This document shows positions 10,165 to 43,836 of a stretch of 64,000 nucleotides of DNA, piece by piece. Each line of letters begins with the position of its first letter. Within the stretch, counting starts at the first letter, position 1. The stretch lies in contig DAHVDE010000008.1 of NCBI GenBank assembly GCA_027313705.1, positions 40,470-104,469 on the forward strand, in the 5' to 3' direction. Source of the DNA: Actinomycetota bacterium. GTDB lineage: Bacteria > Actinomycetota > Actinomycetes > Streptosporangiales > Streptosporangiaceae. The notes below the pieces were generated by a model that worked only from the letters and a program-made list of their open reading frames with translations, was not told the origin of the DNA and searched no databases. A program made the translations under genes and the position numbers.

Positions 10165-10174
10165 ATCACGTGAT
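10165..10174. promoter_or_regulatory. Perfect palindrome ATCACGTGAT upstream of the DAHP synthase operon
   Basis: Same 10-mer recurs at 23364-23373 upstream of the convergent PhzE-like operon. Confidence 0.4.
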
Positions 10175-10277
10175 TACCCCAGATCCGCGCCCTGGGCACC
10201 CTCGACTCGTTGAGCGAACGGATCTCCTTGAGCGATCGAAAAGAATCGGCCTTCGCTGGAGACGGGCGGATCATCTG

Positions 10278-11498: not shown

Positions 11499-11604
11499 GA
11501 ACACGCGAACCCGAATCACGTAAATAAGTGATGCAACGCAAGGCGTGCATGAAGAACCATTCGCTAAGAAATGCGCCTTGAAAATCAGAGAAACCGGATC
11601 AGTC

Positions 11605-19006: not shown

Positions 19007-19023
19007 TCAGGAAGGAGCAGATC

Positions 19024-21667: not shown

Positions 21668-23274
21668 GACCATACTCCCGTCTGCTGGTAGCCGCGGGCG
21701 CGGTCGAGCACCGCGCCAGCGTCATCTGGCGTGGCGCTGCCCTGCCAGGCCACATGCTGGTCAGGTCGCACCAGCACGAGATCACAGGACCAGCGGCGAC
21801 GTACCGCCGCGTCGTCTTCCCTGAGCCAGACGAGCGGGATATGACGCTGCGCGGCCTCCTTGACGAACGTCTCCCCCGCGTCAGTTCCCGACAGGTCAAC
21901 CAGCGTGAAGCCGGTGCCAAGAAGCCGGTAGAGCGGGGTGCCGCCCAACTGTGCTGAAGGGAGCCTGCCGCCTGGCCATGGCACTGCGGCGACCTCACCC
22001 CAGTGCCATGACGGCGGGCTGCCTGCGACCACGCACACCACAGGCGAGCCGCTGTACCGATAGCCGAAATGGATCCCGACGTTGTCGAGCTGGTAGGCCT
22101 CTTGCCTGAGGAAGCCAGCCAGTACCTCCGTAGGCGTGCCGATCGCGGCGAGCCTGGCGAATCGCTGCCAAGCCTCCATCAGGTTTGCGCACATCTCTTT
22201 GTTGAACAGGGCAACGGGGCGACGCTCGGCCTGGTAGCTGTCAAGCAGTCCTGAGCCGCCCCAGCCTGCCGTACTTGCGGCGAGCTTCCAGCCAAGATCG
22301 ACGGCATCGGCGATCCCGGTATTGGCTCCATGCCCGCCGACCGGGTAGAACTGGTGAGCCGCGTCGCCGGCCAGGAACACCGGCCCGGCTCGGTATGCGT
22401 CAGCTACCGCCAGGGTTCCCCGCCAGTAGCTGACCTCAAGCAACTCTTCGATTGCGAACTCGCAACCGAATTTCTCCTGCATCACGGCGACCGGGTCTGG
22501 CGGCGGCTGGCCGTCGGCGACCAGGAAGCTCGCTGTCCAGGTGCGCTCGCCATCACGGGAGACCAGGTTGAGACCGCGGGTCGTAGTGGTGAGGAAGGCC
22601 GGGCCGTAGCGGCACAGCGCGGGGTCTGAGCTGGTGAAATAGAGCGAGCAATGCTGGGTCGGCGGACCTGACGCGCTGACGGCAATGCCAGCCGCCTCGC
22701 GGATTGTGCTGGCTGCCCCGTCGCAGGCCACGAGATACCTGGCAGTCACGCAGGCGGGTCCGCCAGGGCCGGTCACGCTAGCGCGCACGCCGGTCCCTGC
22801 GGGCGCGAAGCCCGTGACGCGCCAGCCTTCCCTCAGGTCGACCAGCGGATGCGCTCGCGCCGCCCGGCGCAGCACTTCCTCAAGTAGCGAGCCCTGCACC
22901 CGCTGGTACGCCTGCTCGGGCGCGGTGCCATCGGTGACCGCCGAGTTACGGCGGGAAACCTCGGCAACCGATGGGTATCGCCAGACGGTGACCGGGGGCT
23001 CGGCGGCGCTGCGGCTGAAGATGAAGCTGGCAGGCTGGTCCGCTGCCACGCCGCGGGACCGTATCTCGGCGCTGACGCCAAGCCGGTCGAGCAGTTCCAT
23101 GCTCCGGCCGTTCACGTAATCCATCTTCGGGAACCTGGGCGGCCGGACCGATTTCTCCAAGACGATGCTCGGCGTGCCATGACGGGCGAGTTCCAGAGCC
23201 AGCACCGAGCCCACCGGGCCTGCCCCCGCCACGAGGACCGGGGTGTCGAAGATGTGACCGCTCACGATGACCAC
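21664..23274 (-). CDS. FAD-dependent aromatic hydroxylase (MhpA/polyketide hydroxylase type)
   Basis: 'TPVLVAGAGPVGSVLALELARHG', 'YLVACDGAASTIREAAGI', 'VFLAGDAAHQFYPVGGHGANTGIADAVDLGWKLA'. Confidence 0.88.
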   Translation of the reverse strand: MVIVSGHIFDTPVLVAGAGPVGSVLALELARHGTPSIVLEKSVRPPRFPKMDYVNGRSMELLDRLGVSAEIRSRGVAADQPASFIFSRSAAEPPVTVWRYPSVAEVSRRNSAVTDGTAPEQAYQRVQGSLLEEVLRRAARAHPLVDLREGWRVTGFAPAGTGVRASVTGPGGPACVTARYLVACDGAASTIREAAGIAVSASGPPTQHCSLYFTSSDPALCRYGPAFLTTTTRGLNLVSRDGERTWTASFLVADGQPPPDPVAVMQEKFGCEFAIEELLEVSYWRGTLAVADAYRAGPVFLAGDAAHQFYPVGGHGANTGIADAVDLGWKLAASTAGWGGSGLLDSYQAERRPVALFNKEMCANLMEAWQRFARLAAIGTPTEVLAGFLRQEAYQLDNVGIHFGYRYSGSPVVCVVAGSPPSWHWGEVAAVPWPGGRLPSAQLGGTPLYRLLGTGFTLVDLSGTDAGETFVKEAAQRHIPLVWLREDDAAVRRRWSCDLVLVRPDQHVAWQGSATPDDAGAVLDRARGYQQTGVWS

Positions 23275-23400: not shown

Positions 23401-25818
23401 CTAGCGGCCAGCGAGCACGACTCCCGCCTGCGCTTCCTGGCGGGGCGCGAAGCGCCTGGTGAGCTCCACGCGGTTGTTGACGCCGAATTTCGAGAAGATG
23501 TGCCGCAGGTGACTGTCCACCGTGTGCGGCGACAGGTACAGCCGGGTGGCGATCTCCCGGTTGGTCAGTCCCTCGATGACAAGTTGCGCGACGGGCAGTT
23601 CCGACTGGGTCAGCTTCGGGCATGGGCTGGCACTAGAGCCAGGCTGCGCCTCCCGCTGGGCCGATTCCCGCAGGAACTTCTGCACGGCGGTGACATGGCG
23701 CTGCGCGCCCGCGTTGGCGTACAGGCGAAGTGCCTCCTCGATGTGCTCGGCGGCACACCGCCAGTGGCCCGCCTCGCGTTCGGCACGTGCGGTGTCCTCA
23801 AGTGCGACGGCCCGCACCAGCGGACGCGGGCTCGCTGTGTAATACCGCAGTGCCGTCTGCAGGGCATCAAGATCTGCCTGGCGCAGGCCAGCGGCATGCT
23901 GCGCCGCCCCGGCAAGGGATGGAACCGCGGGGTTCTGTCCGGAAATTTGCCGCAAGGCGGTCACGATGGCCGCGGCAAACGCCCCAGCTCCGGCCCGCTG
24001 GGCGAGCTTCAGCAGCGCGAGACCAGCTGCCGGGACGGCGGCGAGCGGCAAGCTACCCGGCAGCGCCTCGATCAGGGGCGTCGCCGTCTTCAGCGCCAGG
24101 TCCTGTTCTCCCGCGGCGTCCTGGTAGAGGGCCAGCGGCCAGAGCAGTCCGAGCGGGCCGCCATCGGCCGCCGGTTCAAGGCGCTTCGCATAGCGCTCGG
24201 CGGCGTTCAGGTCACCCTGGTGGACGGCCACCTCAAGCATCAGGGCAAGGGAACGCATGCTCAGCTGCGGCGCCTTGAGCCGCTCGGCACTCTCCAGGCC
24301 CTTCTCGGCCTCGCTCGCCGCCTCGGCCAGCAGCCCCTGAGCCAGGCGCAATTCGGCGGTGAAGTAATAACACGAGGGCGTGAGCCAGGCGTTCTCCGGC
24401 AGCGACTGGCGGCTGCGTATCCAGGAATAGCCAGCCTCGGCTTCCTCGAACCGGTCGGCGGCGGCCAGCGCACGGCTGAGCCAGAGCCGCGGATGGCACG
24501 AGACGGCGTCGTCGCCGGTGGCTTCCGCTTCGGCTGCGGCCGCCCGCGCGCAGCTGATAGCCGTGTCGAGGTTTCCCTCGTCGTACGCTGTCGCCCCCTT
24601 GGCCACATTCCCTGACAGCCTGCTCTGGACGCCAGCGATCCCGGCCCGCAGGGCCGCCTCAACTCCGGCTCGCTCAGGGACCGCGCTTCCGGTGGCGCGG
24701 TCCTGCCCGTACTTCAGATGGCTTGCCTGGGCGGCCCGCTCCTGCTCGCTGTTCTGCTCTCGCACCGTGATCATCAAAGTCGCGGCCTCACGGCACAACG
24801 CGATCTTGATAGGCTCGTAGAGATTCCGGTAAATCGCCTCGCGGATCAGGTCATGGTTGAACCACAACTCCGCCCCGTCAGCGACCAGAATGCCGGCCTG
24901 GACCGTCTCCTTGGCGATCGGCAGCAACTCGACCGTACCCCGGCTGAGCAGGCATGCGGCTTCGTGCACCGTGAACGGGCGATTCAAGAGTGCACCCACG
25001 TCGAGCAATGCACGCGCGTCCGCGGACAGATCCTGGAGCCGGAGCATAACAGCGTCAAAGAGTCCGGCAGGCAGGTCTCCCGGCAGGTACGTTCCCGCGC
25101 CCTCCACGACGGCGAGCCGGCCGCTGTCGCGCAGTGCGCCGAAGAGCAGTCGCAACAGGAATGGATTGCCAGAGGCGCGGCTGGCCAGCCTCAGCGCGGC
25201 CTGGTCAGGGAAGGCGCCTAGCGCCTCGGCGCACAACTCAGCCACCGCGCCGTCGTCGAGCGGACCTAGCTCGATCCGATGCGCGTCCTCGGTCATCAGC
25301 CGGTCGATGGTGCCCACTGCGGGGCAGAGCGGAATGCACGGATTCAGCGCGAGCATCCAGAAGACCGGCGCGGTGGCCAGTTCCGGCACCAGCGTCCTGA
25401 TCACCATCAATGTCAGTTCATCGGCCCACTGGGCGTCGTCTACGGCAATGTACAATGGTCGATCGCGAACGTGAGTTTCGATGATCTCCCTGATGCGGTC
25501 GATCAGCCAGAAGCAATCATTTCCGTGCCCCCCGAGCGTGCCCGCGTCGATTCCTGGCAGGCCGCCGCGCCGCAGTCCAGGCAACAGCGTGCTTAACGGG
25601 GCGACCCGGTCCAGTTCTGTGGCCCGGCAGTTTACCGTCGTCATTCCGAGCAACCTGGCTTCGTCTGTGACCTCCTGAAGCAGGCGGCTTTTCCCGAGAC
25701 CGGTGGTCCCTTCGACTACCACGCACTGGCTGGAACCCGTCCGGGCCGCAGAAAGCAGCCCGCGGACCTTGGCCACGATCTCCTGTCTGCCCGCAAGCCG
25801 ATTCTTGGTCGAATACAT
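23401..25818 (-). CDS. LAL-family (large ATP-binding LuxR) transcriptional regulator
   Basis: N-terminal Walker A 'GTTGLGKSRLLQEV'; C-terminal LuxR HTH 'VIEGLTNREIATRLYLSPHTVDSHLRHIFSKFGV'. Confidence 0.9.
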   Translation of the reverse strand: MYSTKNRLAGRQEIVAKVRGLLSAARTGSSQCVVVEGTTGLGKSRLLQEVTDEARLLGMTTVNCRATELDRVAPLSTLLPGLRRGGLPGIDAGTLGGHGNDCFWLIDRIREIIETHVRDRPLYIAVDDAQWADELTLMVIRTLVPELATAPVFWMLALNPCIPLCPAVGTIDRLMTEDAHRIELGPLDDGAVAELCAEALGAFPDQAALRLASRASGNPFLLRLLFGALRDSGRLAVVEGAGTYLPGDLPAGLFDAVMLRLQDLSADARALLDVGALLNRPFTVHEAACLLSRGTVELLPIAKETVQAGILVADGAELWFNHDLIREAIYRNLYEPIKIALCREAATLMITVREQNSEQERAAQASHLKYGQDRATGSAVPERAGVEAALRAGIAGVQSRLSGNVAKGATAYDEGNLDTAISCARAAAAEAEATGDDAVSCHPRLWLSRALAAADRFEEAEAGYSWIRSRQSLPENAWLTPSCYYFTAELRLAQGLLAEAASEAEKGLESAERLKAPQLSMRSLALMLEVAVHQGDLNAAERYAKRLEPAADGGPLGLLWPLALYQDAAGEQDLALKTATPLIEALPGSLPLAAVPAAGLALLKLAQRAGAGAFAAAIVTALRQISGQNPAVPSLAGAAQHAAGLRQADLDALQTALRYYTASPRPLVRAVALEDTARAEREAGHWRCAAEHIEEALRLYANAGAQRHVTAVQKFLRESAQREAQPGSSASPCPKLTQSELPVAQLVIEGLTNREIATRLYLSPHTVDSHLRHIFSKFGVNNRVELTRRFAPRQEAQAGVVLAGR

Positions 25819-25923: not shown

Positions 25924-27471
25924 TCAGCCGGACGCGCCGCGCAGGGGGTGCGCGGCAGGCAGGCCGGATCCGTGGGCGGACGCCGGACGGCCCATCGGCG
26001 GCCGGCGCATCGGGAGGTCGGGAATGGCCAGGGTGACCGCCACGAGCAGCAGCCCGCAGCCGCCAGCTACCGCGAAGACGGCATGCAGCGCATGGACGAG
26101 CGCGACCGGGGAGACGCGCAGCGCGCCGCCCGCGCCGCCGGTCAGCGAGGCAGCAGGCCCGCTGCCTGCACGGGACGCGAATCCGCTGGTCAGGATCGTG
26201 CCAAGGACGGCCACGCCGAACGATCCGCCGAGTTGGCGCAGATAGGCTCCGGTAGCGGTACCCGCGCCCAGCTCGGGCAGCGGCAACTCGGCCTGCACCA
26301 CCAGCACCAGCGGCTGGACGCACAGTCCGAGGCCAGTTCCGGTAAGCGCCATGACCGCGTAGGTCCACAGCGCCGGCGTCTGCTGGCCGAGGCTCGTGCA
26401 AGCCAGCACTCCCGCCGTGGTCAGCAGCGCACCCGCGACGACGACCCGCTTGTAACGCCCGGTGCGGCTGATCGCGTGCCCTGCCGCGACCGACACCACG
26501 GTGAGCGTGCCCATCAGCGGCAGCAGCATGAGACCTGAGGCCGTCGGTGAGCGCCGCAGCACTAGTTGCAGGTACACGGGCAGAAAGACAATCGAGCCGA
26601 ACATGACGATCCCCAGCAGGAACGCGGCTGACCCGCCCGTCCAGAACGAGCGGATCTTGAACAGGCGGACAGGAAGCAGTGGCAATTGCGCCCCGAGCTC
26701 GGCCCGCACGAGCAGCGCCAGCATGACCACGCCGAAGGCAAGCGCCCCGACGACATGCGGATCGGTCCAGCGGTACTCGCCGCCTCCCCAGGATGCGGCG
26801 AGCACCAGCCCCGCAGTGCCCGCGATCAGCAGGCCGCAGCCGCCGATGTCGACATGGCCGGTTCTCGCCGGCCTGGGCAGCGCGCGCAGGCCCCAGGCCG
26901 ATGCCACCAGCGCGGCCAGGCCGAGCGGTATGTTGAGAAAGAAGATCCAGCGCCAGCCGTGTTCGGCCAGGTAGCCGCCGAGCAGCGGGCCGGCGACACT
27001 GGCCGTGCCGAAGACCGCCCCGAACGAGCCCTGCATGCGGCCTCGCTCGTGCGGCGGCACGATCTGCGACACGATGGTGAACGCGAGCACTACCAGCCCG
27101 CCTGCCCCGATACCCTGCACTCCCCTGGCCAGGATCAGCTCAAGTATCGTCTGCGCGGTACCGCACAAGACCGAGCCTGCGATGAACATGCCGACGGCGA
27201 ACATGAGCACAGGCCGCTGCCCGCGCAGGTCGCCGATCCTGCCGTACAGCGGCATCGCGGCCGTTCCGGTCAGCAGGTAGGCGGTGATCACCCATGGGTA
27301 GCTGCTCAGTCCGCCCAGGTCCCTGACCACCGTGGGCAAAGCGGTGCCCAGGATGTTCTGGTCAAGCGCCGCGAGCAGCACGGCAACCATGAGTGCGCCG
27401 AGCACGATCCTGACGGGCCGGCGCCCGAGGACGCCGGCGCGAGGATCAGCGGGGCCAGGGCGGGCTGTCAT
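25924..27471 (-). CDS. MFS transporter, DHA2 type
   Basis: 'LAALDQNILGTALPTVVRDLGG', 'GWRWIFFLNIPLGL'. Confidence 0.9.
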   Translation of the reverse strand: MTARPGPADPRAGVLGRRPVRIVLGALMVAVLLAALDQNILGTALPTVVRDLGGLSSYPWVITAYLLTGTAAMPLYGRIGDLRGQRPVLMFAVGMFIAGSVLCGTAQTILELILARGVQGIGAGGLVVLAFTIVSQIVPPHERGRMQGSFGAVFGTASVAGPLLGGYLAEHGWRWIFFLNIPLGLAALVASAWGLRALPRPARTGHVDIGGCGLLIAGTAGLVLAASWGGGEYRWTDPHVVGALAFGVVMLALLVRAELGAQLPLLPVRLFKIRSFWTGGSAAFLLGIVMFGSIVFLPVYLQLVLRRSPTASGLMLLPLMGTLTVVSVAAGHAISRTGRYKRVVVAGALLTTAGVLACTSLGQQTPALWTYAVMALTGTGLGLCVQPLVLVVQAELPLPELGAGTATGAYLRQLGGSFGVAVLGTILTSGFASRAGSGPAASLTGGAGGALRVSPVALVHALHAVFAVAGGCGLLLVAVTLAIPDLPMRRPPMGRPASAHGSGLPAAHPLRGASG

Positions 27472-29170: not shown

Positions 29171-29542
29171 GTGTCCGTATTTACCAGCGCCGAGCTTGCC
29201 TTCCTGCAGGGAGAACGGCACCTTGCCAGACTGGCCACCGTGGGCCCGGATGGCATGCCGCACATCGCCCCGGTCGGCTGGTCCCTGGACGAAGATGCGT
29301 GCGTCGTGCGAGTCGGCGGCATCAATCTGGCCGCCACCAAGAAATTCCGCGACATCGCCCGCACGGGGCGTGCGGCAATCGTCATCGACGACGTGCTGCC
29401 GCCGTTCAGGCCGCGCGGCGTCGAAGTCCGCGGCAGGGCCGTCGCGCAGAGCGAGCCGGAAGCCCTCATCGTAATCCACCCCGAGCGGATCGTGAGCTGG
29501 GGACTCGATGGCGCGGCCAACAGTGCCCGTTACGTCGGCTGA
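29171..29542 (+). CDS. PPOX-class (F420-dependent type) flavin/deazaflavin enzyme
   Basis: 'FLQGERHLARLATVGPDGMPHIAPVGW'. Confidence 0.8.
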   Translation: MSVFTSAELAFLQGERHLARLATVGPDGMPHIAPVGWSLDEDACVVRVGGINLAATKKFRDIARTGRAAIVIDDVLPPFRPRGVEVRGRAVAQSEPEALIVIHPERIVSWGLDGAANSARYVG

Positions 29543-31145: not shown

Positions 31146-32501
31146 TCAGCCCTGGACCGTGGCCGCTTCCCTGACCATCCCGGCCCGCTCGGCGCGGTCA
31201 AGCTCTGGGTAGATCGGGCACTCGGTCACCGGCTCGAACGGGTCGAAGGTGTCCCACTGGCTCTGCGTCCGCAAATAACGGGTAAAGGCATTGGTGTCGC
31301 TCCAGAAGTCTCCGCTCAGAACCCGCGCGAAGTGCTGGTCACCCTCCACGGCGAATCCCCGCTGCCGCAGGTAGGCACCCAGCCGGTAGCCGGAGTCGTA
31401 GTAGGCGGAGATCAGCCGCGTGTAAGAGTCATAGCCGGTTTTGTAGAAGTTCGAGTAGGCCAGCAGACGTTCCCGCTCGCTGCCGGGCGCTGAGAGGATG
31501 CGATCCAGCGTCCTGGCTGCTTCGCGACCGGTGGCCATGGCGAGGAACGTGCCGCCGGAAAAGATCGGGTCGATGAAGTTGCCTGCGTCGCCGGCCATCA
31601 TCCAGCCTGCTCCGGTGACCATGTTGGAGAAGTAGCAATAGTCTGTCTCAACGTGGATCTCCGTGCGTGGCGTCGCGCCGGTCAGTCGCTGCACGACGCG
31701 GGGCGCCCTGGCCAGGTGCAGGTCCAGCGCGGACTTCGGGTTCCCGATGGCCCGCAGCGTCTTGCGGGCCATGACGGCGCCGATGCTGATAGTGGTCGGC
31801 CAGATCGGAATGGCCCAGATCCAGCCGTCCGCATGCCCCGCGACCTGGATATCGCCTCGCTTGCCTGGATTGTGGCGCTCATCGAGCCCGTCGTAGTGCC
31901 GGAAGACCGCCACGTTCTGCAGCCAGGGAATCTCTTTCCTGGTCCCGAACAACTGGGCCGCTTTGCTGGCCCGTCCGCCGCAGTCCAGCACCCAGCCGGC
32001 GCGTACCGAGCCCTGCTGGCCGTCGATCTCGTACCTGACACCGCTGACCCGTCCGTCTCCCCCGGTGATCAGGTCGTGGACGACGGCGTCCTGCACCAGC
32101 CTGGCTCCCCGGCGGACCGCCGAGGTGGCCAGGAAGGCATCAAAGTGTGCTCGCTCCACCTGGAATGTCGTCGGGAACCTGCCCGGACCCTGGTCGGCGA
32201 AGTCGGTCCGCCTGTAGTCACCGCTGGGGAAGACAAACTCCGCTCCGGTCTTGATCGGGTACCCCTGCGCCCTGGCCTCCTCGTACAAGCCGGCCTGGCG
32301 GAGAATCTCCGCCGTGTAAGTCAGCTGCGACTCTCCGACGTGGAAGCGCGGCAGGGTGCGCCGCTCAAGCATCAGCACGGAACGGCCGGCCTCAGCGAGC
32401 GTGAGCGCGGCGATAGACCCGGAAGGCCCGGCGCCGATCACTACGACCTCGACCGACTCGGGGACCTGGCTGATACGGCTATTGCCCGGCAAGCCGCTCA
32501 T
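31146..32501 (-). CDS. Flavin-dependent halogenase
   Basis: GxGxxG start 'VVVIGAGPSGSIAALTLAEAG', 'PRFHVGESQL', WxWxIP motif 'WIWAIP', and FxxPxxSxG motif 'FIDPIFSGG'. Confidence 0.82.
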   Translation of the reverse strand: MSGLPGNSRISQVPESVEVVVIGAGPSGSIAALTLAEAGRSVLMLERRTLPRFHVGESQLTYTAEILRQAGLYEEARAQGYPIKTGAEFVFPSGDYRRTDFADQGPGRFPTTFQVERAHFDAFLATSAVRRGARLVQDAVVHDLITGGDGRVSGVRYEIDGQQGSVRAGWVLDCGGRASKAAQLFGTRKEIPWLQNVAVFRHYDGLDERHNPGKRGDIQVAGHADGWIWAIPIWPTTISIGAVMARKTLRAIGNPKSALDLHLARAPRVVQRLTGATPRTEIHVETDYCYFSNMVTGAGWMMAGDAGNFIDPIFSGGTFLAMATGREAARTLDRILSAPGSERERLLAYSNFYKTGYDSYTRLISAYYDSGYRLGAYLRQRGFAVEGDQHFARVLSGDFWSDTNAFTRYLRTQSQWDTFDPFEPVTECPIYPELDRAERAGMVREAATVQG

Positions 32502-32905
32502 CGCTGTCCTCCTGCCTCGTCCAAGTAGAGGGTATAAAAATGAGTCTCGGGGCTTGCCGGGTCGATGTGCATTTCACCGCGTGCCCCGCGATAGGCGCCA
32601 GTACCGCCGGTAACCGCAGCGAAGAAAGGCGGCGGAGGGAAGACCTCCTCCACGAAGGTCTGAAAAGCGATCGTGCCGTCTGGCAAGCTCATGCTCACGT
32701 TGCAGACGATGTAGCTGCGGCCGTCATCTATCCGGACCACGGTGCAGGTGCCGCCGTCGAATCCGACCACCTCGCCATCGCGGGAAAGTTCGTGAGTGAA
32801 GACGCTGCGATCACCGAGGTTCGCATCCGCCTCGCCATTCTTGTAAACCTCACGGCGAACCGGCCTGGCGACAAGCTTGATGACTTTCTGTTCGACCATC
32901 GACAT
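32498..32905 (-). CDS. Allene oxide cyclase / dirigent-like barrel protein
   Basis: 'CNVSMSLPDGTIAFQTFVEE', 'FAAVTGGTGAYRGARGEMHID' resemble AOC-like barrel proteins; 4-bp overlap with the halogenase. Confidence 0.6.
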   Translation of the reverse strand: MSMVEQKVIKLVARPVRREVYKNGEADANLGDRSVFTHELSRDGEVVGFDGGTCTVVRIDDGRSYIVCNVSMSLPDGTIAFQTFVEEVFPPPPFFAAVTGGTGAYRGARGEMHIDPASPETHFYTLYLDEAGGQR

Positions 32906-33159: not shown

Positions 33160-33810
33160 CTACGCAGACATCGCGCCCGCCATGCCCGCCTGCCGCGCCA
33201 GCCGGAAGTCGACCATCCTGGCGGCTACCTCGGTCAGCCGACGCCCCTGGTACCTGGCCGCAGCGAGGATCTCCTCCGTTGGCATGGCACCTTGTACCCC
33301 GGCGACGAAAGACGTCCCGTAAGGATTGCCGCCCGCGCCGTAGACGGCCGGGTCGGTGTAGCCAGGTGGCACGATCACCGTGCCCCAGTGATAAAGGACA
33401 TTATTGAGGGAGAGCAGCGTGGACTCCTGCCCGCCGTGCTGGTTGATCGCTGAGGTGAACGAGGTCGCCGCTTTGTCAGCGAGCTTGCCGCCCATCCACA
33501 GCGGCCCGGTCGTGTCAAGGAACTGCTTGAGCTGCGCCGAGACGTTGCCGTACCTGGTGGGAGTTCCGAAGGCGAAGCCATCAGCCCAGGCGAGATCCTC
33601 GATCTCCGCCTCGGCCACCTTGTCCTGAATTTCCTGCAGGTGGCTCCGCCACCGCGCGTTCATGTCTATGGCCCAGTCCGGGGCCAGTTCCGCCACGCGC
33701 CGTAGCCGGACCTCGGCACCGGCTTGGGCCGCTCCCTCGGCCACGGCCTCCGCTAGCCGGTGAACGTTGCCTGTCGAACTGTAATAGATGACAGCGATAT
33801 TTACCGTCAC
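33160..33810 (-). CDS. NAD(P)H:quinone oxidoreductase, WrbA-type (second copy)
   Basis: 'IAVIYYSSTGNVHRLAEAVAEGA', 'GGQESTLLSLNNVLYHWGTVIVPPGYTD'; clearly paralogous to 8651-9283. Confidence 0.88.
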   Translation of the reverse strand: MTVNIAVIYYSSTGNVHRLAEAVAEGAAQAGAEVRLRRVAELAPDWAIDMNARWRSHLQEIQDKVAEAEIEDLAWADGFAFGTPTRYGNVSAQLKQFLDTTGPLWMGGKLADKAATSFTSAINQHGGQESTLLSLNNVLYHWGTVIVPPGYTDPAVYGAGGNPYGTSFVAGVQGAMPTEEILAAARYQGRRLTEVAARMVDFRLARQAGMAGAMSA

Positions 33811-34154: not shown

Positions 34155-34643
34155 ATGAGTCACGACGACCGCCCGGAGGGTCTAGCGGCGTGGACTGATC
34201 TGTGCAATATCGTGGACTCCGTCCGGCTGGCCCTGAACAGGGAGCTCCTGCAGCAGGCCGGGGTAACGCTCGCCGAGAATCTCGTCCTGTGCCACGTGGC
34301 CATGGCTCCCGGACAGCGGCTTCGCATGATAGACATCGCGCAGTTGCTCGCAATCGGCAAAAGCGCGGTGACCAAGACCGTCGACCGTCTTGAGGAGCGC
34401 GGGCTGCTCACCAGGAGCAGGGACAGCGCGGACCGCAGGACCATTTACGCAGTGCTCACGCCGCAAGGAGCGAAGGTATTCGGGCAGACTCAGCCCGTGT
34501 ACGTCGGCGCGGTCGGCCGCTATTTCTCCGGTCTTCTGACTGAAACCGAACTTGCCAGCCTGCGGCACGCATCGGACCGGCTCAAGGCCGAAGTGCCCGG
34601 CTCCGTGACCCGTTCCCCGCAAACCGCAAAGGGCATGCACTGA
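34155..34643 (+). CDS. MarR family transcriptional regulator
   Basis: 'MIDIAQLLAIGKSAVTKTVDRLEERGLLTRSRDSADRRTIYAVLTPQG'. Confidence 0.88.
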   Translation: MSHDDRPEGLAAWTDLCNIVDSVRLALNRELLQQAGVTLAENLVLCHVAMAPGQRLRMIDIAQLLAIGKSAVTKTVDRLEERGLLTRSRDSADRRTIYAVLTPQGAKVFGQTQPVYVGAVGRYFSGLLTETELASLRHASDRLKAEVPGSVTRSPQTAKGMH

Positions 34644-34691: not shown

Positions 34692-36053
34692 TCAGATGGC
34701 GACTACGCAGTTATCGGCACTGTCGCGCATGACGCTGACGATGCCGGCCGTGCCGTCGCTGAAGAACCTGGAGAACAGGCCGGCCGGGCGCCCGCCGAAC
34801 AGCAGCGGCCCGAACACCGGGGCGACGTCGGCATCGTGAACCTCATCGGCGCCGTCGGCGATCATCGCCAGCCGGCACGACCTCGGCTCGACGAAGGCCT
34901 GCACGACGCTCGTTCCGGCCCTGGCGGCCTCGGTCACGGCGGCTTCCCAGGCCGGCTGGCTGGCCTGGTTGCCGATGACGACCTGCTGGCCGCTCATGCC
35001 CAGGCTGCTCTTGAGCACGAGGGACTCGCGGCTGCCGACGGCGAACGGGACGAGGTCGACGTCGCGGTTGCCCATGGTCGTCCGCCGGTCGGCGAGGATC
35101 CTGGTCCACGGCAGATGCGCGGCCACTAGTGCCCGCTCGGCGGCGCTCATCCACGGCCTGCCCTCAGACAGCAAGCCCATTGTCAGCTTGCTGGACAAGA
35201 ACGTGGAGGTCTGGGTATTCACCAGCAGGCAGCCGTGATCCAGTGCGGCTTGGACCGGCGCGGTGTCGATGCCGAGCTCGGTCCAGTCGGGGATGGTGAA
35301 GTTCCGCAGGCCGAGCGGGTAACGCAGCTGCGGCGGGCAGTCCCAGGCCTGGTGCAGGTCCTCAGGCTCGAAGAAACGCGCGGTGAGGCCAACGTTGTTG
35401 AAGTACTCGGCTTCGAGGTCGAAATACCTGGTGGACTCCACTTTCTGGTCGCGGGCGCTGCCCGTCATCGCGACCCTGGGCGCGACGCCGAGCTCGGCGC
35501 TCAGCGCGCGGAACATCCCGGCGCGAACGGCGAACGGATCGGTAGAGCTGAACGGCACCCGGCCTTCTTCGTCGGCGTAGAGCTTGCGCCACACCTCAAG
35601 GCGGCAGTGCGTCTCCACTGGCCCGCCGATCGCCGCGCTGACGTTGAACTCGAGGAACTGCGGACCGTCAGGTCCGATGACGATGTCCGGCCGCGCCACC
35701 ATGTCCGCGTACCGTTCCTCGGTGAACTGGTCATCGGCAAATAGCTGGTGCTCGCTGGGCGGCATCTGGTACGCGGCCAGCCGCCCGCCGGTCGTGTCCG
35801 CGCTCTCCAGTGCCGCCCGGCGTACCAAGTCGAGCAGGGCGGCGGTCAGCCGGAAAAGCTGGGCGTAAGAGGCCCTGGGCAGCGCGATCGGCGCGGCGGG
35901 CAGCACCGGCTGATACGGCCAGCCTGTGTCGCGGATCTCGTGGCGCAGCATCTCCCTGATGGTGCCGGCGGACGCCGCAGGCGCCAGCCGGCGGCGTCCG
36001 AACCACCGGTGACTGCTGGCCGACCCGGTGCTGATGTCCTCGATTGGGTTCAT
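34692..36053 (-). CDS. ATP-grasp-like protein (circularly permuted type suspected)
   Basis: 'PDIVIGPDGPQFLEFNVSAAIGGPVE', 'LVLKSSLGMSGQQVVIG', 'TSVVQAFVEP'. Confidence 0.55.
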   Translation of the reverse strand: MNPIEDISTGSASSHRWFGRRRLAPAASAGTIREMLRHEIRDTGWPYQPVLPAAPIALPRASYAQLFRLTAALLDLVRRAALESADTTGGRLAAYQMPPSEHQLFADDQFTEERYADMVARPDIVIGPDGPQFLEFNVSAAIGGPVETHCRLEVWRKLYADEEGRVPFSSTDPFAVRAGMFRALSAELGVAPRVAMTGSARDQKVESTRYFDLEAEYFNNVGLTARFFEPEDLHQAWDCPPQLRYPLGLRNFTIPDWTELGIDTAPVQAALDHGCLLVNTQTSTFLSSKLTMGLLSEGRPWMSAAERALVAAHLPWTRILADRRTTMGNRDVDLVPFAVGSRESLVLKSSLGMSGQQVVIGNQASQPAWEAAVTEAARAGTSVVQAFVEPRSCRLAMIADGADEVHDADVAPVFGPLLFGGRPAGLFSRFFSDGTAGIVSVMRDSADNCVVAI

Positions 36054-36108
36054 CCGTCCTCTTCCGGCGTTACGGTCTGAATATCCATCTCACGAAGGAG
36101 CACGACGC

Positions 36109-36600
36109 ATGACCTTACGCCGCGTAGACGACAATGAGTACGTCGAGGAGCATGGCGGTGATTACGAGGATTTCGAGCCCGGAATGGTGATCAGGCACTG
36201 GCCGGGCCGGACGATTTCCGAGGTCGATAACACCTGGCTGACCCTGCTGACCATGAATCAGCACCCGCTGCATTTTGACCAGCACTACGCCCAGGCCGCT
36301 GAGTACGGCCGGATCCTGGTCAACAGCGGGATAACCCTGTGCCTGATCGGGGGCATGACGGTGCAGGCGCTCTCGGCCAGGGCGGTGGCCAATCTCGGCT
36401 GGGACCGGGTCAGGTTGCGCGATCCTGTCTTCGTCGGCGACACGCTGTACGCGACCAGCCGGATCCTCGGCAAACGGCTGTCCGCCTCCCGGCCTGGCAA
36501 CGGCATCATCACCGCGGAGACTACGGGCACCAAGTCGACCGGCGAGACGGTCATCGTGTTCGAGCGCTCGTTCCTGGTTCGCTGCCGCGAGACCGGCTGA
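36109..36600 (+). CDS. MaoC family (hot-dog) dehydratase/hydratase
   Basis: 'YEDFEPGMVIRHWPGRTISEVDNTWLTLLTMNQHPLHFDQHYA'. Confidence 0.88.
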   Translation: MTLRRVDDNEYVEEHGGDYEDFEPGMVIRHWPGRTISEVDNTWLTLLTMNQHPLHFDQHYAQAAEYGRILVNSGITLCLIGGMTVQALSARAVANLGWDRVRLRDPVFVGDTLYATSRILGKRLSASRPGNGIITAETTGTKSTGETVIVFERSFLVRCRETG

Positions 36601-36603
36601 CGC

Positions 36604-37566
36604 TCAGTCAGGGATACCGAGTGCTTCGAAGATGGCCGCCGCCGCGGCCGTGTCCTCCACCGCCATCCCCACCGAGCGGAACACCGAGGTGAGCCGCCGG
36701 GCTCCGGCCTGGCGGCCCGGCACAGCACCGAGTTCGTGCAACTGGTCCAGGCCGGTCAGCCCGGCTGCGATCGCGGCCCTGATCTCGCCGGCCTCCGCGA
36801 GCGCCGCGGCTCGTTCCTCCACGACGACCAGCGCGCCGGCCAGCAGGGCGGGATCGACCTCGATCGCGTTCTCGTGGGTGCCGCCGATCACGTTCAGGTG
36901 CGCTCCTTGAGTCACCCAGCCGGCCAGGACCAGCGGCCTTCGGCCGTCCGTGGCGGTCGCCGTGCAGATGACCTCGGCGTCGGTCACCGCGTCCCTTACC
37001 GTGTCGCACACCGTGACCTTGACCGGGCGCTCAGCGGTGCCGGTCATCCACTCAGCGAAGGCTTCCGCGCTTGCCCGGGTACGGGAGACCACCCGGACCG
37101 ACCGGATCGGAAGGACCGCGCGGACGGCCCGCGCCACCGCGCGCGCCTGTACCCCGGCGCCCACGATGGCCAGGTCGCTGGCATCCTCGCTGGCGCACAG
37201 CCTGGTCGCCAGGCCCGCGACCGCTCCGGTACGGATCGCCGTCAGCTCAGCACCGTCAAGCAGCGCCATGATCCGCCCGGTCGCCAGGTCGGTCAGCACG
37301 GCGACACCGTCGATGAGCGGCAGCCCGCGGCCCGGGTTGCCTGGGGTGAGGGTGGTGATCTTGACGCAGCCGACACCACGCTGCTCCCAGAGCGCCGGGC
37401 CGACGACGAGTTGCCGGCCGGCACCGTGCTCGATGACCGTGCGGCCGCGGGAAGGGACCGAGCCTGCCGACAGGCCGGCGAACGCCTCGGCCAGAGCGTC
37501 CATCACCCGCATCAGCACGCTCGTCCCTGCCATATCGCGCGCGCCGATCAGCGCTGGGCAGGTCAC
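36604..37566 (-). CDS. Ornithine cyclodeaminase / mu-crystallin family protein
   Basis: '[51 protein letters not shown]', 'AHLNVIGG'. Confidence 0.88.
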
Positions 37567-38576
37567 GCGGCGTTCCCGCGGCGGCCGCTGAGCTCCGCCG
37601 CGACTCCGATGATCAGATCCTCCTGCCCGGCGATGGCCTGCCGCCTGCCCAGTTCGAAGAACACATCGCGCGGATCGATCCCGGCTCGCCTGGACTGATC
37701 GAGAACCTGATGCTTGAAACCGGAGAAGACCCCGGCCAGCCCGCTGACGATGCTGATCGAGTCGGTGACCGGCGGTGCGGACATCAGCTCACGTCCAGCG
37801 AAGTCGGCGGCGTCAAGCAGTCCGTACAGGTCGATGCCGGTCGGAAAACCGCTGCGCTCAAGCACGGGCACCAGCACCTCAAGCTGGGTGTTGCCAGCGC
37901 CGGCCCCGAAGCCGCGGGCACAGCCGTCGATGATGCGCGCCCCGGCCTCGGCTGCGGCAACGGAGTTCGCGACGGCCATCCCGAGGTTGTTGTGCCCGTG
38001 AAAGATCACCGGCACATCGGTCGCCGCGCCGATCGCACCGATTCGCTCGGTCACGTCCGCGGGCAGGAAGTGGCCGGCCGAATCCATGATGCCCACCGCC
38101 CGTGCCCCGTAGCGAACGGCCAGGGCAGCCTGGCTGGCGAGTTCGGCCGGGGTGGCCATATGACTCATCATCAGTACGCAGTGGGCTTCGGCACCCGCTT
38201 CGGCAAGAAAGCCCAGATGCCGTTCGGCCAGCGTCATCTCGGTGCAGTGAACGCCGATCCTGATGACATCGGCACCGTGGGCCATGGCGCGGCGCAGATC
38301 ATCGGAGGTACCCCAGCCAGGCAGCATGAACACGCCCATCTTGACGTGCGCAAGTGCGTCCCGCACGGTCGACAGCATGAGGTCGTCGCTGACGGCGCTG
38401 CGTCCCACCTGCAGCGAGGACGCGCCAAGCCCGTTGCCGTGCCCGACCTCTACGACCGGGATCCCGGCCTTGTCGGCCGCCTCCGCGTATCCGCGCAGCG
38501 CCGTCACGCTGAGCTGGTGACGGACCGCATGCTGGCCGTCGCGGAGCGTCGGGTCGTGGATCAGCACCGCGCTCAC
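37563..38576 (-). CDS. 4-hydroxy-2-oxovalerate aldolase family (DmpG/MhpE; NikB-like)
   Basis: '[51 protein letters not shown]', '[50 protein letters not shown]'. Confidence 0.92.
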
Positions 38577-39508
38577 CTGGGCACCACGGTCCTGGCCGCG
38601 AACAGGAGCCTGGCGGCGTGCTGCTCGGCGACCAAGATGGCGGCCGAGTTGATGATGTCCAGGTTCCCGGCGTAACCGGGCAGCACGTCACTGTCGGCCA
38701 TGACCTCGATGCAGACGGCCACCTGATCGCCGTTCACCGCGCAGTCGATGACCTCGTATCCTGGCGCGAACCTCCGCACCTGCGTTGCGGCGTCCGCAAC
38801 CACGGCAGCTACCAGCCCGGAGTCTGGCTCGTCGCCGGCGATGATCGCGTGGACGGTGGTCCTGAAGGTGGCCGGCGGCACGGCCGGGCTGATGTTCAGT
38901 ATCGCCTTCGTGTCAAGGACGCCGCTGAAGGTCGTGATCGCGTGCTGGGTCGTCCGCACGTACTCGTCGAGATTGAGGCGGGTGGCCCGCCCCGCGATCT
39001 CGCTGGCTACCGTGGAGACCACCTCGATATAGGCCACTTCGAAATTCCTGGCGAGCGCGTGCGCGACCGGGATCGACGCCTGTCCGCCGCAGCTGATCAG
39101 GCCGACGTCGCGCGCGGCGGGCGCATGCATTCCGGTCACGGTCGGCACCACCATCTGGCCCATCCGGCTGGGGGTGAGGTCGACCAGCAGCGTGTCGAAC
39201 GGTCGCATCAGTTCGTGGTGCTCGATGTGGGACATCGCGTTCGTGGCGTCGAACACGACGTCAAAAGGACGCGGTGCCGCGATGATCGCGCCGATCCCGC
39301 CGGCGCTGACCGGGTAGCCGAGCCGGCTGGCATACCGCAGGCCAGCAGAGTCTGGATTTCGCCCGGCAACCAGCGCGCAGTCAAGGACTCCTGAGCGGTG
39401 AATCTTGCTGACCAGATCCTGGCCGATAGCCCCGGTACCGAGGACGGCGACGGCAGCCGGCATGCTGGTGCCCGGCCGCACGGCGGCGATATCTTCGCTG
39501 GTAGTCAT
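38573..39508 (-). CDS. Acetaldehyde dehydrogenase (acylating) family (DmpF/MhpF; NikA-like)
   Basis: '[17 protein letters not shown]', '[18 protein letters not shown]', '[21 protein letters not shown]', '[24 protein letters not shown]'. Confidence 0.92.
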
Positions 39509-40389
39509 AGCCCGGCCTGCCGCCTTCCTGCACGGTCCTGGCCAAACCTGGCGGTCCATGCGTCTCCGGACGCCACGGTCGCGCGCGCCATCGCGGCGAA
39601 TGGCGGACCGACCATATTGCCGTCTAGCACCGCTATTCCGCCCTCGGCGGCAGCCACGGCATCGGTGATCCGCCGCGCTTGCCTTAAGCCGTCAGGATCG
39701 GGCCGCAGCGCCCGGTTGATCGCCGCCAGTTCGGCCGGATGCACCGTCACCTTGCCGTGGAAACCCATTTCACGGATCCTTTCGATCTCGGTCGCCAGGA
39801 CTTCAGGTTCGGCCAGCCGGAAGTTGGCCGTGTCGATGCAGGCAGTGCCGTACCTGGCGCAGGCCAGCGCCATTGCCTGCCGGGCGGCGAGCAATCCGGC
39901 CCAGGAGATCTCGATGCCGAGGATGGCTGCCAGGTCCGCCGAACCTAAGACGAGCCCGTCGGCGCTGGCGGCGATCGCGTCGATCTCGGCCACCGCCGCC
40001 GGGGTTTCCACGGTTACGAAGATGTCGGGGTGCGCTCCTGCCGAGTCGAGGACACCGCGCATCAGCGTGACCTCGGGCCCTGACCGCACCATCGTCATCA
40101 CGATCAGGCCGGGCTTGACACCGGACTCGGCGAGCATCATCAGGTCGCGGGACGCCTCGATGGTGCTGAACTCGTTGACGCGCACGCCGGTGTTCGCCGG
40201 CTCGGGCGCCTTCTCGAGCGCCGCGAGGCAGATTTCCCTGGCCGCCGCCTTCTTCTGCGGCGGGACACCGTCCTCCAGGTCGATCAGGTGTATGTCAGCG
40301 TCGTAAGACCAGGATTTCACGATCCGGTCAAGCGACAGCGCGGGCGTATACAAGATGCTGCGCGGAATGGCGCGGGTGGCGATGGTCAT
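39505..40389 (-). CDS. CitE / HpcH-HpaI family CoA-ester lyase
   Basis: 'RSILYTPALSLDRIVKSW', 'IDLEDGVPPQKKAAAR', 'FVTVETPAAVAEI', 'GFHGKVTVHPAEL'. Confidence 0.88.
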   Translation of the reverse strand: MTIATRAIPRSILYTPALSLDRIVKSWSYDADIHLIDLEDGVPPQKKAAAREICLAALEKAPEPANTGVRVNEFSTIEASRDLMMLAESGVKPGLIVMTMVRSGPEVTLMRGVLDSAGAHPDIFVTVETPAAVAEIDAIAASADGLVLGSADLAAILGIEISWAGLLAARQAMALACARYGTACIDTANFRLAEPEVLATEIERIREMGFHGKVTVHPAELAAINRALRPDPDGLRQARRITDAVAAAEGGIAVLDGNMVGPPFAAMARATVASGDAWTARFGQDRAGRRQAGL

Positions 40390-41639
40390 GAGGGCGTCTC
40401 CTCGGCTAGTTCGGTTGCCTGGCAAGCGCCTGCCTTCGCCAGCACCGCGCACAGATCACGAATCTGCTGGCTGGTCTGGCCGGCGCGAAGCATGACCCGG
40501 AGGCCGGCCGTGCCGCGAGCGACGATCGGGAAGAACACCGGCGAGACATAGAAGCCGGCCTCGAATACCCGCCGGCCCGCATGGATCACGGACTCGTCAC
40601 TAAATGGTATGACCCGGATCGGATATTCCGTTCCCGCATGGTCTGTCTTAAGGTAGGAGTCGAATAGCTGGATATTGGCCCGCAGCTTTCCCTGCAAAGC
40701 GGTCAGCTCCTCGGTTCTGTGAATGTCCGCTGAGGCCAGCGAGGCTCCGACGGCAGCGGTATTCATCGGCTGGGAGTAGCACAAGGCGCCGGCGAACCGC
40801 TCGATTACCCGCAGCGTCGCCTTCTGATAGCCGTCGAGCATGATCGCCGCGCCGCTGGTTCCGAACGCCTTGTTCAAGGTCGCGACCGTGATCGTCCGCT
40901 CGTCAAGCACGGGGCTGTGCGAGCGGATGTAGCCGACGCCGCGGTTACCGTATGCCGAGAGCGAATGCGAGTCGTCGTAGTACACGAGCAGGCCGTATTT
41001 CTCCTGCAGCCCGGCCAGTTCGAGCACCGGCGCGTATCCGCCGAGGCTGTCCGAGCCATCGACGACGTAGCAAACCCGCTCATGCCTTTTGCACATGTCC
41101 TCGATGAAATCGATGGAGTGATGATCACAGGTCGCGATCTCGGTCTCGTCGGCGCAGGCCGGCTTGGCGCCGGCCAGCGACACATGGCAGTTCTTGTCGA
41201 ACAGCATCAGCGGGCGGGTGCCGTTGCCGAGATGCCCGGAGGCGATCAGCGGCAGCAGGCCCGCGCTGGCGACCCCGGCTGAGATCGCGCAGACCACATC
41301 GGCGCTGAAGAGCTCGCCAAGTGACGCCTCTAGCTCAAGCAACGCCGGTATCTGCACGCGGCTGCGCGGAATGCAGTGATCCAGGACACCGAACCGGCGC
41401 AGAGCGGAGATCGCGCCTTCGATGACCTGAGGATGGGAGTCGAGGTCCAGGTAGGAGCAGCAGGTGAAGTTGACGAACTCGTGTCCTTCTGCGGTCCGCA
41501 GCACGCCGTTGTCAAGCTCGGCCACGATCCCGGCCAGCCCGTTGTCCTCGCAAGAGTCCCAGAATGCATTGCCGACGCCGACCGCCTTGTCGTTGTTGCG
41601 ATACCGATGGGCCGGCGTGATGGCCTGCTTGCCGGTCAT
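40386..41639 (-). CDS. PLP-dependent alpha-oxoamine synthase family enzyme (BioF/ALAS/KBL-like)
   Basis: 'NFTCCSYLDLDSHPQVIEG', 'YYDDSHSLSAYGNRGVG', Schiff-base lysine region 'VATLNKAFGTSGA'. Confidence 0.88.
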   Translation of the reverse strand: MTGKQAITPAHRYRNNDKAVGVGNAFWDSCEDNGLAGIVAELDNGVLRTAEGHEFVNFTCCSYLDLDSHPQVIEGAISALRRFGVLDHCIPRSRVQIPALLELEASLGELFSADVVCAISAGVASAGLLPLIASGHLGNGTRPLMLFDKNCHVSLAGAKPACADETEIATCDHHSIDFIEDMCKRHERVCYVVDGSDSLGGYAPVLELAGLQEKYGLLVYYDDSHSLSAYGNRGVGYIRSHSPVLDERTITVATLNKAFGTSGAAIMLDGYQKATLRVIERFAGALCYSQPMNTAAVGASLASADIHRTEELTALQGKLRANIQLFDSYLKTDHAGTEYPIRVIPFSDESVIHAGRRVFEAGFYVSPVFFPIVARGTAGLRVMLRAGQTSQQIRDLCAVLAKAGACQATELAEETPS

Positions 41640-42526
41640 CGGCCGCTCTCGGCGCGGTTTCCGGCTGGCTGGTAGTTGTAGACGCCCTTCAGCTTGCGGT
41701 AAGCAGCGGTATAGAGGGCCACGCCGAGCACGTACGGCCGCTGGAAGATCTTCGGATGACGCAGCCAGAAGTTGACGTTGATGTTCATCTCCTCGAGCGA
41801 TTCGGCCTGATGCCACCAGCCGAGCGGAAGGTAGAGCATCTGGCCGGGCTCCAGGATCAGCTCCCGGCGCTCGGCCAGCCTGGCTGCCAGCTTCGGGAAG
41901 CGCGCCCGGTCGACTTCGTCGAAGTCGAAGGCGCGGGACTTGTCACCGAAACCCCGCAGCACCGAACGCGGGTAGTACTCCCAGAACCCTGGCGGCGCGA
42001 TCACGAATCGCTTGCGGCCTTCCAGCGCGATATTGAAGTTCTCCAGCTCGTCGAAATGACTCTGGGTGAAGACGCCCCGGCGGTTGATCCACAGGTTGGC
42101 GGCGTTCAGCGAGCGCCGGTAGCCGAACATTTCCTCGGCATCGAAGCCCAGTACCGCGTTGACGTCTGCCGGGTTGTCGCGGATGTTGGACACGATCCGA
42201 TGCCATCTGCCCTGGCCGGCCTGGTACTTCTCGTCCTCGAAGAACTCCCTGAGCCGTATTTGCCTGGTGGTCCAGCGCTCGGTGTTCTGCTTGCTGCTCG
42301 GCTCTTCGAATAGGGTGACCGTCATCTCCCCGAGACGCTCGGCCACGCCCTCCCTGCCAAGGCCCTGAACGTCGTCAGGCAAGGTGATGACTACGGGGGT
42401 GTCTGCACGGAAAAGCGCCCGCTGTCCGAACGCGGTGAACTGGTCGAAACTGAGCCGCGGTACCGCGACGCCCGCGCTCCCGGTCTCACTCTTGTGAACG
42501 CTGGCCCCCAGATGTGCCGTGTTCAT
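41636..42526 (-). CDS. Cupin_8/JmjC-type Fe(II)/2OG oxygenase-like protein
   Basis: HxD in 'QSHFDELENFNIALEGRKRFVIAPP' and distal His in 'QMLYLPLGWWHQAESLEEMNINVNFW'. Confidence 0.75.
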   Translation of the reverse strand: MNTAHLGASVHKSETGSAGVAVPRLSFDQFTAFGQRALFRADTPVVITLPDDVQGLGREGVAERLGEMTVTLFEEPSSKQNTERWTTRQIRLREFFEDEKYQAGQGRWHRIVSNIRDNPADVNAVLGFDAEEMFGYRRSLNAANLWINRRGVFTQSHFDELENFNIALEGRKRFVIAPPGFWEYYPRSVLRGFGDKSRAFDFDEVDRARFPKLAARLAERRELILEPGQMLYLPLGWWHQAESLEEMNINVNFWLRHPKIFQRPYVLGVALYTAAYRKLKGVYNYQPAGNRAESGR

Positions 42527-42546
42527 TGGCGCTGTCCTTTTCCTCG

Positions 42547-43836
42547 TTACCCGGTGATTCCTGATGCCTCCGCCATCACCGGCCTGCCTCGCAACGCCGA
42601 CTGGCACCCGATGGTCAGGCCCATCGCGATGGCTCCGCCGGCCACCGCCAGCCACGCCGCGGACCCGAATCCGCCCAGGCCTGCCACCCTTCCGGCGGCC
42701 GCAGTACCCAGCGCTATGCCGACCGAGCCGGTGCTCGTGAGCCAGGAGAATGCTTCTGACAGCGACTCCTCCCTGGCTAGCGCCTGGAGCAGGGTGGTGC
42801 CCGCGATCAAGGCCGGGGCGATGGCAAAGCCGGCGAGGACAGCAAGCAGATCCATCACGGCGAAGGAAGGCGCGAACGCCAGGGGCACCGCGCCAAGAGT
42901 CAGCAGACAGGTAGTGATGGCCAGCAGCCGCGCCTTAGGCAGCCGCCAGTCCCTTGCGCCGTAGAACGCGCCGCCGGTGAGGCTGCCAGCAGCCGTCAGT
43001 GCCAGCAGCACGCCGCCGAGTCCTGGTGCCCCTTGCTCTCTGGCGAACGCGATCATCGTGACGTCGACCGCGCCAAGCAGGAAGCCCATCCCTGCGTAGC
43101 AGACCATCAGCACCTGGACACCGGGCAGTGCGATCACCCGCCGCGGCTGACGCCGCCCAGGTATGGCGGCCACCGGTGCTGCGGCCACCGGTACTGCGGT
43201 GCTCCTGGCAACGGTCCCGATCGGGGGTTCTGAGCGGCCGTGCAGCGCGATGGTGATGAAGCCCACGGTGGCGAGCACGCCGCAGGCGACCAGGCCGGCG
43301 GCGGGATCTACGGCCGAAACCAGCAGCGCGACCAGCAGCGGGCCGAGCAGGAATACGGCCTCTTCCAGCATGGACTCAAGCGCGAAGGCCGTCTGCTGCA
43401 GCTTGCCGCTGACCAGCGTCGACCACCGCGCGAGCAAGAACGAGCCGAACGAGACCGAGGTACCTCCCGTGGCGACCGCCATGGCGAACACCAGCCAGAA
43501 CGGAGCCCGGGCCAGGATGGTCACCAGCAGCAGGCCGATCGCCAGGGCGTTGGCCGGGCATGCCGTCAGCAGCACTCGTCTCTGTCCGTAACGATCGGCC
43601 AGCCGCCCGACAGCCGGGCCGGTCACCGCCTGAGTGACCAGCATCACCGCCGACACCGCTCCGGCTTCCGCCAGCGATCCGGTGACCGCTGAGACCAGCA
43701 CCAGGACACTGATGGAGCGCATGGCGATCGGCAGCCGACCAGCCATTCCCCACAGCGCCAGGGTCGCAGCGCCAGGGACTCCCAGCAGCCTCAGGTAGGA
43801 CGATCCGAACCGGGAACCTAAGCTCTCGTCGGACAC
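42547..43836 (-). CDS. MFS transporter
   Basis: Twelve-TM-like hydrophobic profile; 'VGRLADRYGQRRVLL'. Confidence 0.85.
   Translation of the reverse strand: MSDESLGSRFGSSYLRLLGVPGAATLALWGMAGRLPIAMRSISVLVLVSAVTGSLAEAGAVSAVMLVTQAVTGPAVGRLADRYGQRRVLLTACPANALAIGLLLVTILARAPFWLVFAMAVATGGTSVSFGSFLLARWSTLVSGKLQQTAFALESMLEEAVFLLGPLLVALLVSAVDPAAGLVACGVLATVGFITIALHGRSEPPIGTVARSTAVPVAAAPVAAIPGRRQPRRVIALPGVQVLMVCYAGMGFLLGAVDVTMIAFAREQGAPGLGGVLLALTAAGSLTGGAFYGARDWRLPKARLLAITTCLLTLGAVPLAFAPSFAVMDLLAVLAGFAIAPALIAGTTLLQALAREESLSEAFSWLTSTGSVGIALGTAAAGRVAGLGGFGSAAWLAVAGGAIAMGLTIGCQSALRGRPVMAEASGITG

Follow-up and report, generated by a model that had tools for sequence, protein, structure and literature searches.

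A predicted flavin-dependent halogenase beside a BBE-like oxidase and a PodA-like barrel protein in an actinobacterial 3,4-AHBA/3-HAA gene cluster

CndH, CmlS, Bmp2 and PltA are considered halogenases of carrier-bound substrates, and the ansamycin flavin-dependent halogenases (FDHs) of the clade described below act after assembly. The genes nat1 and asm12 are reported to replace each other in cross-complementation (PMC3826140), and the mycemycin halogenase MyeP acts late (PMC5867642). Benzoxazoles are formed from 3,4-AHBA or 3-HAA by a ligase followed by an amidohydrolase (PMC12118335).

The window studied here, a stretch of 64,000 nucleotides, carries genes for both of these building blocks together with a halogenase. 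As read from its genes, the product of the cluster is very probably an aromatic compound assembled from two aminophenol acids and carrying chlorine or bromine. The prediction of a halogenated aminophenol/benzoxazole product is well supported by the place of the halogenase in its tree and by the recurrence of the same cluster, halogenase included, in four other genomes. This is a conserved cluster family, present in at least five actinobacteria and apparently undescribed in the literature searched; the search covered a halogenase in a 3-HAA benzoxazole cluster, 3,4-AHBA genes with a halogenase and an FDH with an AOC-like protein, and returned none of the three.

The benzoxazole-type gene set and its sister clusters

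The benzoxazole-type gene set (aminophenol supply, AMP ligase and amidohydrolase) is complete at 10-23 kb of the window, in agreement with the aminophenol context assumed in the original prediction. These genes and the two that follow them are:

10170-11498, plus strand: class II DAHP synthase
11545-12915, plus strand: aspartate kinase
12934-13764, plus strand: GriI/BagB/FevI-type aldolase of the 3,4-AHBA pathway
13798-14901, plus strand: GriH/BagC/FevH-type 3,4-AHBA synthase
14909-15679, plus strand: Amidohydro_2 protein, putative condensing amidohydrolase for benzoxazole ring closure (role by analogy, PMC12118335)
15686-17002, plus strand: AMP-dependent ligase, BagE/FevW-like
17043-18233, plus strand: FAD monooxygenase, 3-hydroxybenzoate 6-hydroxylase-like
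18230-19006, plus strand: EntA/DhbA-type dehydrogenase of the 3-HAA pathway
19003-19686, plus strand: isochorismatase-type hydrolase with a PhzD-like role in the 3-HAA pathway
19694-21673, minus strand: fused TrpE/TrpG-type ADIC/anthranilate synthase of the 3-HAA pathway
21664-23274, minus strand: FAD aromatic-ring hydroxylase, PRK06126-like
23401-25818, minus strand: LuxR-family (LAL) regulator
25924-27471, minus strand: MFS exporter

Most of the set formed by the 3,4-AHBA and 3-HAA genes, the AMP ligase and the condensing amidohydrolase is found with an FDH in Prauserella (L014), Blastococcus (L015), Plantactinospora (L016) and a genome of the same order as the window (G004, locus L028); the GriH gene of L016 is on contig C360, probably just beyond the stretch compared. 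A possible further benzoxazole-type cluster is present in Allorhizocola (L017), with an FDH, an amidohydrolase, an AMP ligase and a DAHP synthase, and with no close AOC-like protein.

The search for carrier proteins (PP-binding) gave only three matches in G004, all of them off the cluster contig C46, and among the matches listed for the genome of the window (G000, to about E=6e-5) none was on the cluster contig C106. Since no carrier match lies on these cluster contigs among the matches listed, the substrate of the FDH is likely to be free and not carrier-bound.

Two other features of these loci should be mentioned. A second gene block at 34692-43836 (minus strand), absent from the sister clusters compared, may be a separate biosynthetic cluster; it includes OCD/mu-crystallin, 4-hydroxy-2-oxovalerate aldolase, acylating acetaldehyde dehydrogenase, RipC-like lyase, BioF-like PLP enzyme, cupin_8 and MFS genes, and a 453-aa protein (34692-36053, minus strand) with no Pfam or NCBIfam match, which has a 27% identical paralogue on the same contig (L033:11577-12986). 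In addition, a Na_H_Exchanger-family (Kef-like) antiporter gene is adjacent to the halogenase, or at most 3 kb from it, in seven members of the halogenase clade (L014:8664-9962, L015:8102-9787, L016:12644-14077, L028:5077-6489, L018:7969-9291, L040:8047-9408 and L041:10525-11814); that of L042 is about 10 kb away, and none was found on the contig of the window.

The halogenase and its relatives

The second group of genes lies at 29-35 kb:

29171-29542, plus strand: PPOX-class protein, F420-dependent-oxidoreductase-like, with counterparts in L014 and L028
29616-31085, minus strand: BBE-like FAD oxidase, BagK/FevA1-like and mitomycin-radical-oxidase-like, with PF01565 and PF08031 (open reading frame to 31145)
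31146-32501, minus strand: FADH2-dependent halogenase of the Asm12/Nat1-type clade, full-length, with K84 and both motifs
32498-32501, minus strand: ATGA overlap of the AOC-like stop and the FDH start
32498-32905, minus strand: AOC-like beta-barrel, a cytosolic PodA relative, with H38/E87/H122/Y124 at PodA D72/H121/E154/Y156
33160-33810, minus strand: NAD(P)H:quinone oxidoreductase of WrbA type, FMN reductase-like; the sister clusters do not conserve it
34155-34643, plus strand: MarR regulator, in divergent orientation to the WrbA-AOC-FDH-BBE group

The halogenase gene is a real open reading frame of 451 aa, and the two signatures on which the original prediction was based are both present (WIWAIP at 227-232 and FIDPIFSGG at 309-317), along with the FAD motif GxGxxG (G23-G28) and the lysine K84. 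Except at the x positions, GxGxxG, K84, WxWxIP and FxxPxxSxG are invariant in the alignment; W227, W229, I231, P232, F309, P312, S315, G317 and K84 are kept through actinobacterial, planctomycete and gammaproteobacterial relatives. The protein matches Pfam Trp_halogenase (PF04820) at E=2e-27, and its best solved relatives by sequence are CndH (E=2e-50), FasV (8zop), CmlS and Bmp2, with about 30% identity to CndH, CmlS and FasV and 45-70% to actinobacterial relatives. These matches run the full length, so that chance resemblance is not an issue. The structure model (pLDDT 92.9) has FasV, Bmp2, CndH, RadH, ChlB4 and CmlS as top Foldseek matches, and reaches Z 36-47 with ten halogenase-like entries against at most 34.4 with other flavoproteins; ordinary flavin hydroxylases are mostly about 10 Z units under the best halogenases. 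The product of 31146-32501 is thus very probably a real halogenase, although its activity is a predicted one, of which neither the motifs nor the fold are proof.

A genome scan gave eight actinobacterial FDH relatives at 47-68% identity, to which genome searches added those of G004 (70%), G630 and G575. In the tree, the halogenase falls in an actinobacterial clade of 12 rows (support 100/100), apart from CndH, CmlS and FasV. This clade contains the FDHs of two ansamycin-type clusters (L020 and L042). The neighbours of the Nocardiopsis ansamitocini FDH are an amide synthase (NAT), an acyl-CoA dehydrogenase, a 3HCDH, an O-methyltransferase and a FAD monooxygenase, the set expected of an ansamitocin cluster, and on a Streptomyces plasmid the FDH gene is accompanied by an AHBA cassette together with PKS and NAT genes, a gene layout like that of naphthomycin nat1. 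Among enzymes with genetic support, the ansamycin halogenases are therefore very probably the closest; this identification is deduced from gene context because the tree lacks the Asm12 and Nat1 sequences, for which homologues in clusters resembling theirs stand in. A geranylgeranyl-reductase-like identity, which the original prediction had named as one outcome that would speak against a halogenase, was rejected: L026, a GGR-like protein from the same order, carries neither motif and branches far outside as an outgroup. The genome of the window also encodes a second, CndH-like halogenase (L002, G000:C3:9416-10513) with WFWYIP and FVDPVFSSG.

No flavin reductase partner conserved across the sister clusters was found; there is a WrbA-like gene here and a different FMN_red gene in L028. 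For this reason WrbA was discarded as a dedicated FDH reductase; its protein may possibly supply reductant.

The BBE-like oxidase and the AOC-like barrel

The AOC-like gene is a real open reading frame of 135 aa counted from ATG 32905, which has a strong GGAGG ribosome site just 5' of it and coincides with the start of the homologues; the longer alternative from GTG 32968 is unlikely. It was originally proposed that this gene is translationally coupled to the halogenase gene. The 4-bp overlap is real and reads ATGA (FDH ATG 32501-32499, AOC-like stop 32500-32498), and the FDH has its own AGGAGG ribosome site inside the 3' end of the AOC-like gene, just upstream of the overlap. However, among the sister clusters compared the overlap exists in this window only, and L014, L015 and L028 have the AOC-like gene apart from the FDH gene; a conserved coupling was therefore rejected, and the reading of the overlap as a functional signal is weakened.

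The BBE-like oxidase, also part of the original prediction, was found just downstream of the halogenase gene, with a probable start at ATG 31085. It reaches 512 bits with the BagK/FevA1 NCBIfam equivalog, below the cut-off of 800, and among solved structures it has a very close relative in mitomycin radical oxidase, 9r43 (E=1e-133). In all four clusters that carry a BBE gene, it follows the FDH on the same strand. The position and strand of the AOC-like gene vary among them, often being opposite; in the Blastococcus cluster a 773-aa prenyltransferase/squalene-hopene-cyclase-like toroid protein (L015:12755-15073) is encoded between the BBE and AOC-like genes.

The four clusters with BBE (this window, L014, L015 and L028) all encode the barrel, at 74-77% identity, and no other cluster compared does. 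Of 11 further genomes of the FDH clade, the three whose cluster carries a BBE have a close AOC-like protein, and the remaining eight lack one, the best they offer being a 30% match in one genome; the plasmid search gave no match. The four AOC-bearing clusters form one clade, and hence the co-occurrence is probably a single acquisition event. Since the presence of the barrel tracks BBE and not FDH, BBE is more likely than the halogenase to be its functional partner. Furthermore, identity between sister clusters is 65-70% for the halogenase and 65-73% for the 3,4-AHBA synthase, so that the barrel is at least as conserved as either and must be under strong constraint.

The fold originally suggested for this protein was recovered by sequence (PF18678, E=2e-12) and by the structure prediction that had been proposed as a check: the model (pLDDT 92.6) is an 8-stranded barrel of the AOC/AbyU/dirigent/PodA superfamily. 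PodA is the best and only strong sequence match (E=2e-13, 28% identity) and also the top structural one (5k21, Z 19.9). The active-site residues of PodA are Asp72, His121, Glu154 and Tyr156, which fits its printed sequence and chain numbering. At these positions, with offsets that agree with the structural alignment, the barrel has His38, Glu87, His122 and Tyr124, that is, three are changed and the Tyr is kept, and for this reason its reaction cannot be read off PodA. The four residues are invariant in all four cluster versions and are not common to distant homologues. The barrel carries no export signal, as the protein begins directly at the barrel; lipoprotein-like leaders are seen in L036 and L039, which are distant homologues.

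Proposed pathway, alternative readings and known systems

From the genes, folds, motifs, clade, conservation and co-occurrence observed, we infer a halogenation, its substrate, an order of steps, a BBE oxidation and a barrel reaction. By analogy with characterised homologous pathways, the AMP ligase would join two aminophenol acids and the amidohydrolase would close the benzoxazole. The FDH would work as an Asm12/Nat1-type two-component enzyme that obtains FADH2 from a separate reductase. The HOCl or HOBr arising at the flavin would travel to K84, which would then halogenate a free aminophenol or benzoxazole, and not a carrier-bound substrate, at an activated carbon of the ring. The BBE-like flavin oxidase and the cytosolic PodA-like barrel would be additions of the four clusters that carry both: BBE probably makes an electrophilic intermediate of quinone-imine type, on which the barrel may carry out a cofactor-free proton shift or ring closure. 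Taken as a whole, this hybrid 3,4-AHBA/3-HAA benzoxazole-type scheme, with free-substrate halogenation, BBE oxidation and a proton shift or ring closure by the barrel, is the best explanation and one that we hold with moderate confidence.

One alternative concerns the timing of the halogenation. A monomer (3-HAA or 3,4-AHBA) could be halogenated before coupling instead of the benzoxazole, and the cluster does supply both free monomers; nevertheless, given the post-assembly action of the ansamycin FDHs of the same clade and the late action of MyeP, we consider this possible but doubtful.

Somewhat less probable is that the barrel and BBE are a self-protection pair instead of biosynthetic steps. 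Their nearest solved relatives detoxify, PodA by removing a redox-active aromatic and mitomycin radical oxidase by re-oxidising the reduced drug, and the WrbA quinone reductase and MarR regulators are alongside. On the other hand, a barrel with one of the four PodA catalytic positions and no export signal fits this role poorly, the BBE homologues BagK and FevA1 sit within aminophenol biosynthetic clusters, and the constant order of FDH and then BBE suggests pathway genes.

It is improbable that the aminophenol is instead hydroxylated, with the FDH-like protein acting as a QhpG/LodB-like flavin monooxygenase. Hydroxylases share the fold, and the QhpG (127 bits) and LodB (79 bits) models match the protein, but these are weaker than its best NCBIfam match, the halogenase CmlS (174 bits, below the equivalog cut-off); moreover, K84 and both motifs are retained, the protein clades with ansamycin-cluster halogenases, and two dedicated ring hydroxylases are already in the cluster.

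The stereocontrol of the original prediction, with a dirigent-like or Diels-Alderase-like barrel acting after oxidative coupling, was abandoned in favour of a PodA-like role and is very unlikely. The fold does match AbyU, PyrI4 and Cyc15 (Z 16-17), dirigent proteins (13-16) and plant AOC (about 15), but PodA is better by structure and sequence, and no stereocentre is evident in the aromatic scaffold predicted for the product.

A cofactor-free tautomerase or isomerase acting with BBE is the better guess for the barrel. More tentatively, the PodA-like His38/Glu87/His122/Tyr124 subfamily might be a new type of biosynthetic enzyme, a cofactor-free tautomerase/cyclase for a BBE-oxidised intermediate of a mixed 3,4-AHBA/3-HAA benzoxazole pathway that includes halogenation. 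For the PodA/AOC/AbyU superfamily, the barrel is a concrete candidate to have acquired a new function. The cluster family predicts halogenated benzoxazole/aminophenol products, and the FDH, placed with the ansamycin FDHs and most likely free-substrate and carrier-free, would suit biocatalysis.

In comparison with known systems, the FDHs of the two ansamycin-type clusters (Asm12/Nat1-like) are in the same clade at 48-49% identity, in an aminobenzenoid context, and their WVWAIP motif is counted as a likeness to the WIWAIP found here; however, the ansamitocin and naphthomycin clusters make PKS macrolactams, whereas neither a PKS nor a carrier was found here, and the substrates would be 3,4-AHBA/3-HAA dimers. 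FasV, CndH, CmlS, Bmp2 and PltA have in common with the halogenase the two-component FDH fold, the conserved Lys and both motifs, but form a separate branch. PodA (pyocyanin demethylase) has the same barrel, with Tyr156 retained here; it is exported with a signal peptide, unlike the present barrel, and its Asp72, His121 and Glu154 are replaced. The mycemycin halogenases MyeP, MymM and MymP belong to a 3-HAA-related cluster with an amidohydrolase; that system differs in its dibenzoxazepinone scaffold and its supply from tryptophan via kynurenine, and no 3,4-AHBA module is described for it in the part of the work consulted. BagB, BagC, BagE and BagK of the bagremycin/ferroverdin systems are the best models for the 3,4-AHBA genes, the ligase and BBE of the window, all below curated cut-offs, and to that set the present cluster adds the 3-HAA genes, the amidohydrolase and the FDH. 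Finally, the closoxazole, nataxazole and A33853 pathways also use an AMP ligase and a condensing amidohydrolase on 3,4-AHBA or 3-HAA, whereas in the cluster analysed here both building-block pathways are together, accompanied by a halogenase, a BBE-like oxidase and a PodA-like barrel.
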